Assembly: GCA_026004795.1 (NCBI GenBank)
Contig: BPJV01000002.1
Span: 372,001 to 436,000, forward strand
DNA length: 64,000 nucleotides
Direction of reading: 5' to 3'
From: Pirellulaceae bacterium
GTDB taxonomy: Bacteria > Planctomycetota > Planctomycetia > Pirellulales > Pirellulaceae
The notes beneath the pieces were generated by a model. The model was not told where the DNA came from and did no database searches. It saw nothing but the letters and a program-made list of their open reading frames with translations. The position numbers and the translations under genes are program-made. This document shows positions 6,635 to 14,132 of the stretch, piece after piece. Numbering within the stretch: position 1 is the stretch's first letter; the number at the start of each line of letters is the position of its first letter.

Positions 6635-8053
6635 ATGAGATTCTACAGCGAAGGCCAATGGCAAGACCGTCCCCAGCGAGTCGAAGTGATCGATCCGGCC
6701 AGCGGAGAGGTGATCGATACCGTCCCCCAAGCCAGTCGCGAGGATGTCGAAAGGGCCATCGCGGCGGCGGTCGACGGAGCGACTCCAATGCGGCAGTTGA
6801 CCGCTTTTGAACGGTTCGAGATCTTGGCACGGGCGGTCGATTTATTGCACCAGCGTCGTGAAGACATGGCGCGAACGATTTCTCAGGAGGAAGGAAAAAC
6901 GCTGGCCGAAGCCCGAGCGGAGGTGCACCGCAGTATCCAAACTTTGCAATTGAGCGCCGAGGAAGCGAAACGGATCTTTGGTGAAGTTGTCCCACTGGAT
7001 GCCGGAGCAGGGGTGCGCCAGAAATTCGGCTTCACTCTCCGCGTCCCGTGTGGCGTGGTGGTAGCCATCACCCCGTTCAATTTTCCCTTGAACCTCGTGT
7101 GCCACAAAGTCGGCCCCGGATTGGCGGCGGGCAACAGCGTGATCTTGAAACCGGCCAGCGATACGCCGTTGTCCGCCTTACGATTGGTGGAAATCTTGTT
7201 GGAGGCCGGATTGCCGCCGCTGGCCATCACCTGCCTCACTGGCCGCGGCAGCGAGATCGGCGAAGCGTTGTGCACCGACCGGCGGGTGCGCAAGATCAGC
7301 TTCACCGGCAGTCGCGAAGTGGGCGAGCGCATCTGCCGCATGGCCGGCCTGAAACGGGTGACGATGGAGCTGGGTTCCAACTCCCCGTTGATTATCCTGC
7401 CGGATGCGGACGTCGATAAGGTCGTCGAAGCGACGGTCATTTGCGGATACGCCAACGCCGGTCAAGTGTGCATCTCGGCGCAACGCATTATCGCCACGCC
7501 GGAGATCGAAGCGGAGTATTTGCAGAAGTTGATCCCCCGCGTGGAACAATTGCGCGTGGGCAACCCGCTGGATGAGCGAACGGAGATGGGGCCGATGGTA
7601 CGGCAAGCCGATGCCGAACGGGTGGAACAATGGTTGCGTGAAGCAGCCGCTGGGGGAGCCCGGTTGGCATGCGGCGGCACACGCGACGGGGCCTTCCTAC
7701 ACCCTGCCGTGCTCACCAACGTACGCACCGACATGCGCGTCTGGCGTGAAGAATTGTTCGGCCCGGCAGTGGCAGTAATGCGCGCCGATTCGGTCGAGCA
7801 GGCCATCGAACTGGCCAACGATACGGCCTATGGCCTCAGTGCGGGCGTGTTCACCCAGGACATCGACCGCGTGATCCAGTTGGCACAACGCATCGAAGCC
7901 GGCAACATCCACATCAACTGGGGCCCCATGTGGCGTACCGATCTGATGCCCTACGGTGGACTGAAGGAAAGCGGGCTGGGACGCGAGGGGCCACGGTACG
8001 CCATGGAGGAGATGACCGAAGTGAAAACTGTCGTCATCCATCTGGGGCAATGA
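6635..8053 (+). CDS. NAD(P)-dependent aldehyde dehydrogenase
   Basis: A 472-residue member of the aldehyde dehydrogenase superfamily, oxidising an aldehyde to an acid with NAD(P)+. All core residues are present: N149 in TPFNFP, K172 in LKPASDTP, E245 in MELGSNSP, and the catalytic C279 in GQVCISAQR. The overall style (short N-terminus, AITPFNFPLNLVCHK) resembles the GapN, lactaldehyde and phosphonoacetaldehyde dehydrogenase branch rather than betaine-aldehyde enzymes. I cannot name the substrate. It probably works with the preceding iron-dependent alcohol dehydrogenase. The gene ends convergently with cimA, 61 bases away. Confidence 0.9.
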   Translation: MRFYSEGQWQDRPQRVEVIDPASGEVIDTVPQASREDVERAIAAAVDGATPMRQLTAFERFEILARAVDLLHQRREDMARTISQEEGKTLAEARAEVHRSIQTLQLSAEEAKRIFGEVVPLDAGAGVRQKFGFTLRVPCGVVVAITPFNFPLNLVCHKVGPGLAAGNSVILKPASDTPLSALRLVEILLEAGLPPLAITCLTGRGSEIGEALCTDRRVRKISFTGSREVGERICRMAGLKRVTMELGSNSPLIILPDADVDKVVEATVICGYANAGQVCISAQRIIATPEIEAEYLQKLIPRVEQLRVGNPLDERTEMGPMVRQADAERVEQWLREAAAGGARLACGGTRDGAFLHPAVLTNVRTDMRVWREELFGPAVAVMRADSVEQAIELANDTAYGLSAGVFTQDIDRVIQLAQRIEAGNIHINWGPMWRTDLMPYGGLKESGLGREGPRYAMEEMTEVKTVVIHLGQ

Positions 8054-8114
8054 GCGCACCTATTGGTCGCATCTTCAAGGGGAACCGGGTCGCCGCAGCC
8101 CTCGCGGCAAGCGG

Positions 8115-9734
8115 TTACAGCGCGGCGATAGCCGTGCGCGTGGGAGATGGCTTCAGTTCTCCTTCTTCGAGCAATAACTTGTATTCGACGGCATCGACCA
8201 GCGCCAACCAACTGGCCTCGATAATATTCTCACTCACGCCAATCGTGCCCCATACGTGGTGATGGTCCGAACTTTCGATGTTCACACGGATCCGTGCGGC
8301 AGTTCCGGCTTCGCAGTTGACCACGCGCACTTTGTAGTCCACCAAATGCATGGAGTCCAGCGCTGGGTAGATGTTGCCCAAACATTTGCGCAGGGCCGCG
8401 TCGAGCGCGTTGACCGGACCGTGCCCCTCGGCGGCTTCGAAAATCTCCTGTTCCCCCACGCGCAATTTGATGATGGCTTCGGCAAAAGCGTGATGCAGCG
8501 CCGCGTTGCGGTCGCCGGCGACTACACGGTACTTGATCGTTTCGAAGTGAGGTTGAAACGTGCCCGCGACGCGTTTGACCAGCAGGTCGAAGGAGGCTTC
8601 GGCCGCTTCGTATTGATAGCCCTGGTTCTCGCGACGCACCACTTCGGCCAGGATAGCATCCATTAGCTCGCGATCCTTGGCGATGTTGTGCTTGGTGGTC
8701 AGCGCGATAATGTTCGAGCGGCCCGACAATTCGCTCACCAATATGCGCCGCTCATTGCCGACCAGCGCCGGGTCGAGGTGCTCGTAGGTGTGCGCTGCCT
8801 TATTGACCGCGTGGACGTGCATTCCACCTTTATGGGCAAAGGCGCTGGAGCCGACGAACGGCTGGTTATTGCGCAGTTGCAAATTGGCCGTTTCGTAGAC
8901 GTAGCGCGACAGCTCGGTGAGGTGGTCCAGGGATCGTCCACCGAGAATCTCGTAACCGGGCATTTTCAATTGCAGGTTTGCCATCACCGCCACCAGGTCG
9001 GCGTTGCCGCAGCGTTCACCGATGCCGTTGATCGTCCCCTGCACCTGATCGCATCCCGCCTCGACAGCCGCCAACGAATTGGCGGTGGCCAGATCGCCGT
9101 CGTTGTGACAATGGATCGCCAAGCGGACAGGGTACTCGGCCAGCGCTTGGCGCACCTGAACCACGATCTCGCGGATCTCACCGGGCAGCGAGCCACCGTT
9201 GGTGTCGCACAGGGCAATCCACTGGGCGCCGGCCGATGCCGCCGTCCGCACCGTTTCCAGCGCGTACTGGGGATTCGCCTTGAAGCCGTCAAAGAAATGC
9301 TCGGCGTCGTACACGATCTCGGCCCCCCGCCCCAAGAACTCAACGCTATCGCCGATCATCGCCAGGTTTTCCTCCAAGCTAGCCCCCAGCACCTCGGTGA
9401 CGTGGAAGTCCCAGCTCTTGCCCACGATGGTACACACCGGCGTATCAGCACGCTGCATCGCCAGCATGCCGGGATCCTGATCCACCGCCAGGCCTCGGCG
9501 ACGTGTCATTCCAAAAGCCGCGATTTTGCTGTTTCCCAACGGCAACGTTTTGACGCGCTGGAAAAACGCCACATCCTTTTCATTGGACAGCGGATACCCG
9601 CCTTCGATGTAATCGATACCGAATTCGGCCAGCCGTTGGCACACGTTGAGCTTGTCCTGAAGGGAAAAACTGACGCCTTCTCCCTGCGTTCCATCACGTA
9701 AAGTGGTGTCGTAGATGGCGATTGATCGTGTCAT
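8115..9734 (-). CDS. cimA: (R)-citramalate synthase
   Basis: A 539-residue enzyme condensing pyruvate and acetyl-CoA to citramalate, the entry to the threonine-independent route to 2-oxobutyrate and isoleucine. The HMGL-like TIM barrel opens with IYDTTLRDGTQ (R13, D14), and the metal ligands H208 and H210 lie in IHCHNDGDLA. A LeuA-type regulatory domain, where isoleucine or leucine binds in relatives, occupies roughly residues 400-530. The EGVSFS signature and the long linker fit CimA better than 2-isopropylmalate synthase. A GGAAGG ribosome site is 5 bases before the ATG. The leader contains an attenuator described separately, which fits an isoleucine-pathway enzyme. Which amino acid feeds back on the protein itself is not visible. 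Confidence 0.93.
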   Translation of the reverse strand: MTRSIAIYDTTLRDGTQGEGVSFSLQDKLNVCQRLAEFGIDYIEGGYPLSNEKDVAFFQRVKTLPLGNSKIAAFGMTRRRGLAVDQDPGMLAMQRADTPVCTIVGKSWDFHVTEVLGASLEENLAMIGDSVEFLGRGAEIVYDAEHFFDGFKANPQYALETVRTAASAGAQWIALCDTNGGSLPGEIREIVVQVRQALAEYPVRLAIHCHNDGDLATANSLAAVEAGCDQVQGTINGIGERCGNADLVAVMANLQLKMPGYEILGGRSLDHLTELSRYVYETANLQLRNNQPFVGSSAFAHKGGMHVHAVNKAAHTYEHLDPALVGNERRILVSELSGRSNIIALTTKHNIAKDRELMDAILAEVVRRENQGYQYEAAEASFDLLVKRVAGTFQPHFETIKYRVVAGDRNAALHHAFAEAIIKLRVGEQEIFEAAEGHGPVNALDAALRKCLGNIYPALDSMHLVDYKVRVVNCEAGTAARIRVNIESSDHHHVWGTIGVSENIIEASWLALVDAVEYKLLLEEGELKPSPTRTAIAAL

Positions 9735-9754
9735 GGTTACCTTCCGCTGCCGAT

Positions 9755-9789
9755 AAAAAAAACCCCTGAAGCGAAGGGCCTCAGGGGTT
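9755..9789 (-). terminator. Rho-independent terminator in the cimA leader
   Basis: On the minus strand AACCCCTGA (9789-9781) and TCAGGGGTT (9769-9761) form a perfect 9-bp stem with an 11-base loop, followed by eight T residues (9762-9755). It lies just 20 bases upstream of the cimA ATG, not after a gene, so it can only act as an attenuator for cimA. The sequence is close to an ideal intrinsic terminator. Confidence 0.88.
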
Positions 9790-9837
9790 AGTAAAACGTC
9801 CGTTGATTGACTGCAGTTCTACCTCGCCCCGCCCTTC
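9773..9837 (-). promoter_or_regulatory. Antiterminator pairing of the cimA attenuator
   Basis: GAAGGGCGGGG (9837-9827) lies inside the leader-peptide coding region. It can pair with CCCC (9787-9784) plus GCCCTTC (9779-9773), leaving a 4-base bulge. This uses the left arm and loop of the terminator, so the two folds exclude each other. A ribosome stalled on the Ile codons leaves the segment free to pair. A ribosome that reaches the stop codon covers it and lets the terminator form. This is inferred from complementarity alone. Confidence 0.65.
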
Positions 9838-9869
9838 CGGCGGCCGATAATGGCGATGCCTATGATCAT
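9819..9869 (-). CDS. Ile-rich leader peptide of cimA
   Basis: A 16-codon open frame encoding MIIGIAIIGRRKGGAR, with Ile at positions 2, 3, 5, 7 and 8. It ends in TAG 29 bases before the terminator stem, and cimA starts 84 bases beyond that stop. Five Ile codons among residues 2-8 upstream of an isoleucine-pathway gene is the hallmark of ribosome-mediated attenuation, as in the ilv leaders of enterobacteria. Low charged tRNA-Ile would stall the ribosome and favour the antiterminator. No strong Shine-Dalgarno precedes the ATG, which is a weakness of the call, though weak sites are common in this window. Confidence 0.75.
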   Translation of the reverse strand: MIIGIAIIGRRKGGAR

Positions 9870-9903
9870 GGTCGAGATAGAGCCGTTGCAGTTCATGCCA
9901 TAG

Positions 9904-9932
9904 AGGGTATACGGCACGGGCCAAACTGTCAA
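9904..9932 (-). promoter_or_regulatory. Candidate promoter of cimA
   Basis: A perfect TTGACA (9932-9927) is followed after 17 bases by TACCCT (9909-9904). TATACC at 15-base spacing is an alternative -10. Transcription would begin near 9897, about 28 bases before the leader peptide, giving a leader of roughly 160 bases to cimA. Confidence 0.55.
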
Positions 9933-10120
9933 CCGAGCGGGAAATTGACGGCATCCCTGCCACAGGACTCGCCAATAGCACGTTGGCGGTTAGAATTTCC
10001 CCATACGCGATCACAGGCACGGTAGTCAAATTCAGGAATTCCACGGCCCAGTGGTGGCAGGCGAAGTTACGCGACCGTTACGGGCCATTCGATACTCGCA
10101 CCGGGAATTGCGTTGATTCT

Positions 10121-11632
10121 ATGTTGTGTGTCACCATCGGGCGAAGTCGTCATAAGGCGGTCATCGCCGAACATGAGTATTTGGCGGAGCAAGGCGCGGA
10201 CCTTGTCGAGTACCGATTGGACTACATCGGTCGCACGGTCGATCTATCCCGGCTGTTGAAGAATCGGCCCACACCGATCGTCATCACCTGCCGTCGCCGA
10301 GAGGATGGCGGACGCTGGGAAAAGACCGAGAAGGAGCGACAGATTCTGTTGCGCGCAGCGATCGCCGACGGTGTCGACTTCGTCGACTTGGAGGAGGATA
10401 CGGCGGCAGCGATTCCCCGTTATGGTCCCACGAAACGGATCGTCAGCTACCATAACTTCGAAGAGACTCCGGCCGACCTGGAGGCGATCCACGAGCGTCT
10501 CAGTAAGCTGGATGCCGATGTGGTGAAGATCGCCACCATGGCCAACTCATTTGCCGACACCATCCGCATGCTCCGTCTGGCCCAATCGGCCACCATTCCC
10601 ACCATCGGACTGTGCATGGGGGATATCGGCATGGTGACGCGCATCCTCGCGCTCCGCTTCGGTGCCCCCTTCACCTACACGGTGGTCACCGGAGGGCGAA
10701 AGATCGCTCCGGGGCAGATTCCGTTCGAAACGATGCGCGACGTTTATCGCCCTCAGGAGATCGATGAGCAGACACGGTTGTTTGGCGTGGTGGCTGATCC
10801 CGTCGGACACTCGCTCAGCCCCCTGATCCACAACATGGCGTTCCAACACCAACAACTCAACTGCCGCTATCTCCCGTTTCGTGTGCCGCCAGAGGACCTG
10901 GCGCTTTTCTTGAGGTGGTGTGTGGACTTCGGCATCCACGGGCTCAGCGTGACGATCCCTCACAAGGAAGCGGCTTTGGAATACCTGTCGGAAGTCGAGG
11001 CGGCGGCGACCGGAATTGGCGCCATCAACACCATTGCCATTCGCGGTCAGAGCCTGGTGGGATTCAATACCGACTATCGCGCGGCGATGGATTGCCTGGA
11101 GGAAGGGCTGCGGACGCAGCGAACGTTGAACAACCAACCCGATGTACCGCGGGAGGAACTGTTCCGCGGGCGCGGCGTCCTGATTCTCGGCGCCGGGGGA
11201 GTTGCCCGAGCCATCGGGTATGGCCTGCGGCAACGAGGCGCCATCCTGGCGATCTCGAGCCGGACGTTCGATCGCGCCAAGAGACTGGCGGACGACCTCG
11301 GTGCACGCGCCTTACCCTGGGAAGCTCGCCACGACATCAAGGCCGGTATCCTGGTCAACTGCACCCCCATCGGCATGCATCCCGATGTGGCCAGCAGTCC
11401 TTATGCCAAGGAGAAGCTGCACGTGGACATGATCGTCTTCGATACGGTATACAACCCGGAGAACACATTGTTGGTCAAGCAAGCGCGGGAAGCCGGCTGT
11501 TTCGTCATCAATGGGCTGGATATGTTCGTCCGTCAGGCAGCCTATCAATACAAGCTGTTCACCGGTGTTGAGCCTCCGGTCGATGTGATGCGCAAGACGG
11601 TCAAAAGGGCAACCTCGCCGGTCAAGTTTTGA
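10121..11632 (+). CDS. aroDE: Fused 3-dehydroquinate dehydratase / shikimate dehydrogenase
   Basis: A bifunctional 503-residue protein covering steps 3 and 4 of the shikimate pathway. Residues 1-215 are a type I dehydroquinate dehydratase: catalytic H111 in SYHNFEETP and the Schiff-base lysine K136 in DVVKIATM. Residues 219-503 are shikimate dehydrogenase: SLSP in the substrate loop, K282 in TIPHKEAA, D318 in FNTDYRAAM, and the NADPH-binding GAGGVARAIGYGL. This fusion order is known from plants and from planctomycetes and chlamydiae. I start at ATG 10121, where the dehydratase fold begins; the 46 residues upstream in frame overlap the cimA promoter region. The gene is divergent from cimA. Confidence 0.93.
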   Translation: MLCVTIGRSRHKAVIAEHEYLAEQGADLVEYRLDYIGRTVDLSRLLKNRPTPIVITCRRREDGGRWEKTEKERQILLRAAIADGVDFVDLEEDTAAAIPRYGPTKRIVSYHNFEETPADLEAIHERLSKLDADVVKIATMANSFADTIRMLRLAQSATIPTIGLCMGDIGMVTRILALRFGAPFTYTVVTGGRKIAPGQIPFETMRDVYRPQEIDEQTRLFGVVADPVGHSLSPLIHNMAFQHQQLNCRYLPFRVPPEDLALFLRWCVDFGIHGLSVTIPHKEAALEYLSEVEAAATGIGAINTIAIRGQSLVGFNTDYRAAMDCLEEGLRTQRTLNNQPDVPREELFRGRGVLILGAGGVARAIGYGLRQRGAILAISSRTFDRAKRLADDLGARALPWEARHDIKAGILVNCTPIGMHPDVASSPYAKEKLHVDMIVFDTVYNPENTLLVKQAREAGCFVINGLDMFVRQAAYQYKLFTGVEPPVDVMRKTVKRATSPVKF

Positions 11633-11951
11633 CCGCTCCGGCCGACTGCGTGCTCTTCGGCATTACCGTTTCCACCGATCGGATCACCTTCGCCCCGTAG
11701 TGGTATGGCAAGCAGCATGGTCGCATCACCGTCGCCCACGCTGGCCACCACAGGCTGGTTACCAGAGGCTGGCCACTTGGTCGGCGCAGGGACGTTAGGA
11801 CAACGGGTGCCTTCAACTCTGGCAAGGATGGAGAACAACGTGGCGACGGCCGCGCGTCTGCGCTCCAGCCAACGGCAACGTAGGGGGTATACTAGAGTCG
11901 ACGCGTTAGCCACGAGTTCAGTTCGTTGTTCACCGAAGGGAAAGGACGTTC
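11633..11951. other. Intergenic stretch with a TATACT box
   Basis: About 320 bases without a recognisable gene. TATACT at 11888-11893 is a plausible -10 element for the downstream peptidase gene, with a 5-prime leader near 55 bases. No convincing -35 box is present. Confidence 0.4.
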
Positions 11952-14132
11952 ATGCGCGCCGCAATGTTGATCGTGTTGTTGGGTTGCTGGGCAGTCGCGA
12001 ATTTGATCTACCATCCTGCGGGATGGACGCAGGAGAATTCCACGAGTGCGAGGGAAACGGATAAGAAAATGGAGGCACAAGTGATAACCGAAGATCATCC
12101 ACTGTTGAGGCCCTGGAGCGGTCCCTATGGAGGTGTACCGCCATGGAATGAGGTACATCCCGAGGACTTCGTGCCCGCGTTTCAACGGGCGATCGAAATG
12201 GCCCAAGCGGAGGTCGAGCAGATCGCTGGGCAATCCGCCCCGCCGACTTTCGAAAATACCATCGTGGCCATGGAGAAGTCGGGGCGGGCGCTGACGCGGT
12301 TGGCCAACATGTTTTTCGTTTTTACCTCGAATCTCAACGCGGGACCGATGCCGGCGATCGAACGCCAGGTGATGCCCATGCTGACCGAGTACGAGGACTG
12401 GGTCACGCAGCACGCGGGGCTATTTCGCCGCATCGAGGCGGTGCGTGAAGGTGACGAGTTTCAACGGCTGGATGCGGTACAACAACGCCTGGTGGATCGC
12501 ATTTACAAAGAGTTTGTACGGCAAGGAGCCCGGCTCAGTCCGGAAGACAAGGAACGGTTGTCGGCGATCAATCAACGCCTGGCCAATCTCTTTACCAGCT
12601 TCACGCAGAATGTCCTGGCCGACGAAGAAGGCTGGGTGACCTGGATCGAGGATCCCGCGCGGTTGTCCGGTCTTCCGCAAAGCGTGATCGACTCCATGGC
12701 TGCGGCAGCGGCCGAACGTGGTCAACCGGGCAAGTGGGCCGTGCTCAACACCAGGTCGAGCATGGAGCCGTTCTTGACCTACGCCGATGATCGCGAACTG
12801 CGAAAACAGGTGTGGCACAACTACTACAACCGCGGCGATAACGGTGACGCTCATGATAACAACGGCATTATTGCTGAAATCCTCAAACTGCGCGCCAAAC
12901 GGGCGAAACTGCTCGGCTACCCCACCCATGCGCACTGGCGGCTAGAGTCGCAAATGGCGAAGACTCCCGAAGCGGCAATGGAACTGATGATGAAAGTCTG
13001 GCCCAAAGCGGTGGCTCGCGTCCGTGAGGAAGTGGCCGATATGCAGAAGATCGCCGATGCCGAAGGGAAGGGCGTCACCATCGAGCCATGGGACTATCGC
13101 TACTATGCCGAAAAAGTGCGCAAGGCGAAGTACGATTTGGATTTCAATGAAGTGAAACCCTACCTGCAGATGGAAAAACTGCGAGAGGGAATGATGTGGG
13201 CCGCCGGACAACTGTACGGCTTGCGGTTCCGCGAGATCCATGACGTGCCGGTCTTTCATCCCGATGTGCGCGTCTGGGAAGTTCTGGGGGCCGATGGTCG
13301 CCATGTGGGATTGTGGTACTTCGATCCCTATGCACGACCTGGCAAGCGATCCGGAGCCTGGATGACCGACTACCGCGCTCAAGAAAACATCGACGAATTC
13401 GTCACGCCGATCGTTTCCAATAACTCGAACTTCATCAAACCCTCCGCGGGCCAACCGGTCCTCATCTCTTGGGATGACGCCGATACCATGTTCCACGAGT
13501 TTGGCCACGCGCTGCACGGCCTGTTATCCAACGTCCGTTATCCGACGCAGTCGGGCACCAACGTTCCTCGCGATTACGTCGAGTTTCCATCCCAGTTGAA
13601 CGAACATTGGCTGGAGACCGAAGAGGTTCTGAATCAGTTTGCCGTGCACCATGAAACCGGTGAGCCGATTCCGCAGGAATTGGTCGAAAAGATTCGCCGG
13701 GCCGCCAAGTTCAACCAAGGATTCGCCACCGTCGAGTACCTGGCCAGCGCGCTGGTCGACATGAAACTCCACCTGGCTGGCGATCAGGATATTGATCCCG
13801 ACAAGTTCGAGCGTGAAACGCTTGCCGAGTTAGGCATGCCCAAGGAAATCGTCATGCGACATCGAACCCCGCATTTTCAACACATTTTCGCCGACGACGG
13901 ATACTCGGCCGGCTACTACAGTTACCTGTGGTCCGACGCCCTGACGGCCGATGCGGCGGAAGCCTTTGAGGAAGCCGGGTCTTTCTACGATCCCACACTG
14001 GCCAAGAGTTTGCACGACAACATCATGTCCGTCGGCGATACGATCGATCCGGCCGAGGGATTTCGACGCTTCCGTGGCCGAGATGTGGACACCGCCGCCT
14101 TGCTGCGCAAACGCGGCTTTCCCGTCGACTGA
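11952..14132 (+). CDS. M3-family zinc metallopeptidase (oligopeptidase A / Dcp type)
   Basis: A 726-residue thimet-like peptidase that cleaves oligopeptides. The zinc site HEFGH is at 515-519 (MFHEFGHALHG). Length and the C-terminal block HIFADDGYSAGYYSYLWSD match oligopeptidase A and peptidyl-dipeptidase Dcp. The first 25 or so residues (MRAAMLIVLLGCWAVANLIY) are hydrophobic, so the enzyme is probably exported; the start of the mature protein is unclear. The ATG has an AAAGGA site about 6 bases upstream. The next gene is a secreted sulfatase, but 800 bases of repeats separate them. Whether it removes dipeptides or acts as an endo-oligopeptidase cannot be told. Confidence 0.9.
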   Translation: MRAAMLIVLLGCWAVANLIYHPAGWTQENSTSARETDKKMEAQVITEDHPLLRPWSGPYGGVPPWNEVHPEDFVPAFQRAIEMAQAEVEQIAGQSAPPTFENTIVAMEKSGRALTRLANMFFVFTSNLNAGPMPAIERQVMPMLTEYEDWVTQHAGLFRRIEAVREGDEFQRLDAVQQRLVDRIYKEFVRQGARLSPEDKERLSAINQRLANLFTSFTQNVLADEEGWVTWIEDPARLSGLPQSVIDSMAAAAAERGQPGKWAVLNTRSSMEPFLTYADDRELRKQVWHNYYNRGDNGDAHDNNGIIAEILKLRAKRAKLLGYPTHAHWRLESQMAKTPEAAMELMMKVWPKAVARVREEVADMQKIADAEGKGVTIEPWDYRYYAEKVRKAKYDLDFNEVKPYLQMEKLREGMMWAAGQLYGLRFREIHDVPVFHPDVRVWEVLGADGRHVGLWYFDPYARPGKRSGAWMTDYRAQENIDEFVTPIVSNNSNFIKPSAGQPVLISWDDADTMFHEFGHALHGLLSNVRYPTQSGTNVPRDYVEFPSQLNEHWLETEEVLNQFAVHHETGEPIPQELVEKIRRAAKFNQGFATVEYLASALVDMKLHLAGDQDIDPDKFERETLAELGMPKEIVMRHRTPHFQHIFADDGYSAGYYSYLWSDALTADAAEAFEEAGSFYDPTLAKSLHDNIMSVGDTIDPAEGFRRFRGRDVDTAALLRKRGFPVD

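Follow-up and report, generated by a model that had tools for sequence, protein, structure and literature searches.

The window, that is, the whole 64,000-nt stretch of Pirellulaceae bacterium DNA analyzed here, carries on its minus strand a gene that the first-pass annotation had assigned to citramalate synthase, cimA; its score with TIGR00977 exceeds the cut-off of that family and supports the assignment (Table 1). A fused 3-dehydroquinate dehydratase/shikimate dehydrogenase gene, divergent from cimA, lies at 10121–11629 of the plus strand. The nearest gene upstream of cimA resembles aroDE and runs divergently on the plus strand, so that the terminator in front of cimA ends no upstream minus-strand gene.

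The same annotation had proposed an isoleucine attenuator in front of cimA, consisting of a TTGACA promoter followed by a short frame rich in Ile, one strand of an antiterminator and a terminator with a U8 tract. All of these elements are present between positions 9932 and 9755 of the minus strand (Table 1). The five Ile codons that had been placed within residues 2–8 of a 16-residue frame are indeed there, and the terminator lies where it had been described, with 20 nt separating its U8 tract from the cimA ATG; counting the inner G-U and G-C pairs, its stem comprises 12 pairs. The proposed antiterminator strand within the leader frame is complementary to CCCC (9787–9784) and GCCCTTC (9779–9773) and thus pairs with the left arm and loop of the terminator. 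The sequence GGAAGG just ahead of the cimA ATG resembles a ribosome site. The TTGACA/TACCCT promoter has a poor -10 box and was missed by a consensus promoter scan.

Table 1. Elements located in and in front of cimA (positions are those of the window)
Feature	Position	Strand	Remarks
-35 box TTGACA	9932–9927	−	counterpart at equal distance in L002, L004 and L005
-10 box TACCCT	9909–9904	−	17-nt spacer from -35 box; weak match
Leader peptide frame MNCNGSISTMIIGIAIIGRRKGGAR, then stop	9896–9819	−	25 codons; ATG 7 nt past -10 box
Inner frame MIIGIAIIGRRKGGAR	ATG 9869 to TAG 9819	−	Ile at residues 2, 3, 5, 7 and 8
Control region ATC ATA GGC ATC GCC ATT ATC	9866–9846	−	five Ile codons
Strand 1 CCGCC (putative anti-antiterminator)	9843–9839	−	partner GGCGG 9833–9829, from fold
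Strand 2 GAAGGGCGGGG	9837–9827	−	antiterminator 5′ strand, within the end of the leader frame
Strand 3 CCCC-TGAG-GCCCTTC	9787–9773	−	common to antiterminator and terminator
Terminator hairpin AACCCCTGA/TCAGGGGTT	9789–9781/9769–9761	−	
U8 tract	9762–9755	−	first two T double as stem end
cimA, citramalate synthase	9734–8115	−	TIGR00977 675.4 bits, cut-off 450

When the 220 nt preceding the window terminator were subjected to 10,000 dinucleotide shuffles, a suitable frame with at least five Ile per eight codons arose in 2 of them, and one with at least four in 40. The competing folds, whose computation had been suggested earlier, were predicted at −27.6 kcal/mol for the segment spanning strands 2 and 3 (strand 4 not yet made), −21.1 kcal/mol for the terminator and −13.1 kcal/mol for the 1:2 hairpin; the whole-leader minimum fold (−56.7 kcal/mol) includes both the 1:2 hairpin and the terminator.

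For comparison, up to 700 nt upstream of cimA were collected from relatives, with 94 loci counted as Planctomycetota. A simple finder detected a terminator within the last 450 nt in 70 of these 94 upstream regions and none in the other 24; the finder misses some, as in L009, where a terminator is visible by eye. Frames of 8–60 codons ending within ca. 95 nt before the terminator were then compared with 200 shuffles. Over the 70 loci, Ile codons were enriched with a z-score of 23.2 and Val codons with 10.6, followed by Ser (4.8), Gly (4.4), Met (4.3) and Leu (1.3); these scores, like the shuffle and swap tests below, count related loci as independent, and their significance is therefore inflated. 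At least three Ile per eight codons were found in 56 of the 70 terminator-bearing upstream regions vs. 9 of the 70 reverse complements, and at least four in 32 vs. 1 (shuffle mean 0.36, maximum 3), so that the Ile-rich frame expected in relatives was recovered. Admission of frames longer than 60 codons added L028, L029 and L130 and raised the first count to 59. Homologous leaders lacking the Ile codons, which the first-pass annotation had named as evidence against its proposal, do exist as a minority: 11 of the 70 terminator-bearing loci have fewer than three Ile per eight codons even with longer frames, and the 24 of 94 loci in which the finder saw no terminator count against it as well. Ile is encoded in the cimA leaders by AUU (194 codons), AUC (108) and AUA (17). 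The distance from leader stop to terminator, determined for the 56 leaders with at least three Ile per eight codons, is 24–36 nt in 42 of them, with a mode of 28.

Within the genus of the window, 15 genomes were searched and 13 loci (L001–L013) were read. Eight of them (L001–L006, L009 and L013) carry the Ile leader, and five lack the full leader. L007, L008 and L011 keep the terminator with no Ile run, L008 having a short relic; neither terminator nor Ile run is seen in the last 450 nt of L010 and L012. If the terminator served to shield cimA from stray transcripts and the Ile frame beside it were fortuitous, L007 and L011 would be in keeping with this. However, the Ile enrichment across loci (z of 23), the 2 in 10,000 shuffles in the window, the co-variation of the antiterminator and the Leu frame in front of leuA (both described below) make such an insulator very improbable.

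The pairing of strands 2 and 3 was evaluated by matching the 80 nt before the terminator with the terminator left arm and loop. A MAFFT alignment of leader ends, made from 59 of the 70 terminator-bearing loci, selected because their leader stop is close to the terminator, had too many gaps in strand 2 for pairs to be counted column by column; the strands were compared by shuffling and by swapping partners between loci instead. Complementarity of strands 2 and 3 gave a combined Z of −15.5 over the 70 loci, 36 of which reached z of −2 or lower. The segment from −45 to −8 gave −13.6, and an upstream control segment −0.2. The window's own 2:3 pairing is unremarkable against shuffles (z −0.8). In the partner-swap test, the true pairing was matched by 0 of 5000 permutations over all 70 loci, by 13 of 5000 in the genus alone and by 0 of 5000 outside it, with 507 of 5000 in the negative control. 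The own partner had a mean rank of 0.27 (0.5 expected by chance) and was the very best in 3 of the 70 loci. The antiterminator and terminator strands thus co-evolve, and the alternative helices that were to be checked in relatives are conserved as far as the 2:3 complementarity is concerned. By eye, strand 2 frequently spans the leader stop codon, as in L131, where GGCCUUAGG pairs with CCUGAGGCC; other 2:3 pairings are formed by UGACUUGAGG with CCUCAGGUCA (L038) and GGGCAGGG with CCCUGCCC (L065).

Pairing of strands 1 and 2, evaluated over 62 loci, was at chance level (combined Z 0.0), and a general 1:2 hairpin was rejected on this ground. This result, the frequent position of strand 2 across the leader stop codon and the tight stop-to-terminator spacing are what one would expect of a two-state variant of this attenuator class, one that can do without an anti-antiterminator: a ribosome at the stop codon would block strand 2, while with no translation the antiterminator would form and the gene would be on. 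In the predicted fold of the window, however, GGCGG of strand 2 is paired with CCGCC, which directly follows the run of Ile codons; by eye, L006 has CCACC and GGUGG at the equivalent position, and several other members of the genus look similar. The window locus thus fits the three-hairpin form, and the wider set, with 1:2 pairing at chance level, fits the two-state form. For the window we consider the two-state form rather unlikely, although, as a variant of the preferred explanation, it shares part of the latter's probability. A long helix from the leader start to the spacer past the stop codon was seen in L013 (z −6.0) and L002 (z −3.9); it is not general (combined Z −1.5, n = 70).

The Ile-rich frame of the first-pass annotation stands, but its start probably lies further upstream: translation is more likely to begin at ATG 9896, giving 25 codons, than at ATG 9869. 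An ATG located 6–7 nt after the -10 box is found in L001, L002, L004, L005 and L013, i.e., in five of the eight leader-bearing loci of the genus. The arrangement TTGACA, 17 nt, TAnnnT, 6–7 nt, ATG is shared by the window, L002, L004 and L005, with TATTCT, TAACGT and TAAGTT, respectively, as the -10 boxes of the last three; L013 has the ATG at the same distance but a poor -35 box. The short gap is absent from L003, L006 and L009. An attenuator whose leader starts at 9869 would have its ATG in frame and immediately ahead of the Ile codons, but ATG 9896 has counterparts at a matching distance from the -10 box in L002, L004, L005 and L013, and no ribosome site is visible by eye ahead of 9869, which leaves this variant improbable.

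The proximity of ATG to the -10 box in five of eight loci suggests that in part of the window genus the cimA leader may be translated from a leaderless or near-leaderless transcript. The lack of a strong ribosome site for the leader, noted earlier as the weak point of the proposal, is better read as a sign of leaderless or near-leaderless initiation, which would account for it. Planctomycetes are reported, from one species, to contain few Shine–Dalgarno genes and to show a bias for which leaderless mRNA or protein S1 may be responsible (PMC5397173); leaderless leader peptides could be put to the test in such a phylum. Outside the genus, some leaders (L020, L034 and L035) are preceded by a Shine–Dalgarno-like sequence, as judged by eye.

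T-boxes commonly regulate genes of branched-chain amino acid metabolism in other bacteria, and a T-box or another tRNA- or ligand-sensing RNA could in principle take the place of a leader peptide. No Rfam family matched above its gathering score in positions 7000–13000 of the window or in 11 related loci; in that part of the window, just two sub-threshold matches were obtained, both to other families and none to the T-box model. Together with the strong coding signal of the leader frames, this makes an RNA sensor the least probable of the explanations considered, and we give it hardly any weight.

The gene for 2-isopropylmalate synthase, leuA, served as a matched control. In the genome of the window, leuA is preceded by a Leu-rich leader MARCGLQTLSLTKLLRERIGVGLH (L147, 817–891), a terminator (925–955) and, by eye, an antiterminator that matches the terminator. 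Upstream regions of 41 leuA genes (the own gene and those of 40 relatives from the cimA set), picked before the sequences were seen, were analyzed; all 41 genes exceed the TIGR00973 cut-off, and a terminator was found in 35 of the 41. In the leader frames of these 35 loci, Leu codons were enriched with a z-score of 20.3, the values for Thr, Ile and Val being 3.2, 0.4 and 0.1. At least four Leu per eight codons were present in 33 of the 35 leaders vs. 1 of the 35 reverse complements, and strand 2:3 complementarity gave a combined Z of −11.2. Thus, with Leu before leuA and Ile before cimA, the control codons follow the pathway of each paralogue, save for the extra Val at cimA, where Val codons are enriched although CimA serves Ile alone. 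In the same genome, the 700 nt ahead of the matches for ilvB, ilvC, ilvD, the trpE-like genes, hisG and ileS contained no terminator that the finder recognized. A TrpE-like match in this genome (G000:C2:47394-48789; L189–L192) falls into four pieces, one with an internal TGA, which may be due to a split in the search or to a sequence error.

An even draw of 89 genomes across the phylum contained 27, the own genome included, with a cimA match at an E-value of 1e-120 or better. Among the 26 others, a terminator was found in eight, and seven of these eight had at least three Ile per eight codons; the terminator-bearing loci gave an Ile z-score of 9.3 and a combined Z of −8.0 for strands 2 and 3. 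The element was present in four of four loci of the same class (L202, L203, L204 and L206), although L206 repeats L056 and L203 and L204 come from one genus, so that the independent cases are fewer. It was present in 3 of 22 loci in the rest of the phylum, i.e., it is patchy outside the class. In other phyla, the finder placed a terminator in 6 of 38 cimA upstream regions. Four of these six loci, titled Desulfobacteria or Deltaproteobacteria (L070, L075, L105 and L108), have Ile-rich frames before the cimA terminator, for example MIRNIVSIIRPIIIIIIQDTSG in L105. These frames suggest separate or older cimA attenuators, and the idea of attenuating cimA is then not confined to Planctomycetota.

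The genome of the window (96.8% complete) has four genes of the PALP family. Of the three encoded proteins that were scanned, one is a cysteine synthase, another a threonine synthase, and the third, of 318 residues, is dehydratase-like; the fourth gene is trpB, as judged by eye. The 318-residue protein stayed below the cut-offs among the best 25 of its 39 matched families, and none of the three scanned proteins reached a threonine deaminase cut-off among the families listed. Since no threonine deaminase was found among the scanned proteins, cimA may be the sole route to 2-oxobutyrate; it may then be the only entry to isoleucine, with the attenuator as its control point.

In our reading, the cimA leader is very probably a ribosome-mediated transcription attenuator that senses the supply of Ile-tRNA, and the output of cimA is probably set by the ease with which ribosomes find isoleucine. 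Promoter use, the leaderless start, leader translation, stalling and the response of cimA to Ile are what we infer in the following scheme. RNA polymerase would start at the leader AUG 9896 or a few nucleotides from it, and ribosomes would load near the 5′ end of the leader with no Shine–Dalgarno site. At ample Ile-tRNA, the ribosome would clear the five Ile codons, reach the UAG and cover strand 2 or have passed it; strands 3 and 4 would then form the terminator, and transcription would end at the U8 tract. At scarce Ile-tRNA, the ribosome would wait on the Ile codons with strand 1 covered, strand 2 would pair with strand 3, the terminator would be blocked and cimA would be read.

A broader scenario, which we put forward tentatively and hold to be somewhat short of an even chance, joins the two sets of leaders. 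An old pair of attenuators in Planctomycetia would act on the paralogues CimA (Ile with Val) and LeuA (Leu), with codons tracking the pathway. Most would be two-state, strand 2 lying across the stop codon so that the terminating ribosome is the off-signal and an anti-antiterminator is unneeded, and the cimA leader would since have become leaderless in part of the window genus. If the attenuator reading is true, Planctomycetota employ classical translation-coupled attenuation, and cimA with Ile and leuA with Leu in the same genomes constitute a natural paired experiment.

In the enterobacterial ilv, leu, thr, his and trp leaders, ribosomes that stall at codons for the amino acid made by the pathway decide between antiterminator and terminator; these leaders have Shine–Dalgarno sites and a 1:2 hairpin, whereas the cimA set has no conserved 1:2 pairing over 62 loci. 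The type of attenuator is classic; its occurrence in front of cimA seems to be new to the literature. In line with the first-pass annotation, no description of a cimA attenuator or of a planctomycete leuA attenuator was recognized among the matches listed in a literature search that covered mostly papers outside subscription journals. Short frames upstream of structural genes of Planctomycetes have been counted as leader genes (PMC4833913); according to the accessible part of that paper they concern reinitiation at short leader-to-gene distances, unlike attenuation at cimA, and its accessible main text mentions neither cimA, leuA nor isoleucine. In Actinobacteria, leaders with runs of Ile, Val and Leu codons and terminators precede ilvB, and a Leu run precedes leuA, which there carries a pseudoknot, the LEU element (PMC1262725, whose accessible text contains neither "cimA" nor "Planctomycet"). 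A similar layout is seen in ilvBNC of the actinobacterium Corynebacterium glutamicum, as far as the accessible part of PMC11857589 describes it. That operon controls acetohydroxyacid synthase, whereas the window leader precedes citramalate synthase. Its 15-residue leader has branched-chain codons (Ile, Val and Leu), its transcript starts one nucleotide from the leader start codon, as may also be the case in the window, and its terminator, antiterminator and antiantiterminator recall the hairpins predicted for the window (PMC11857589).
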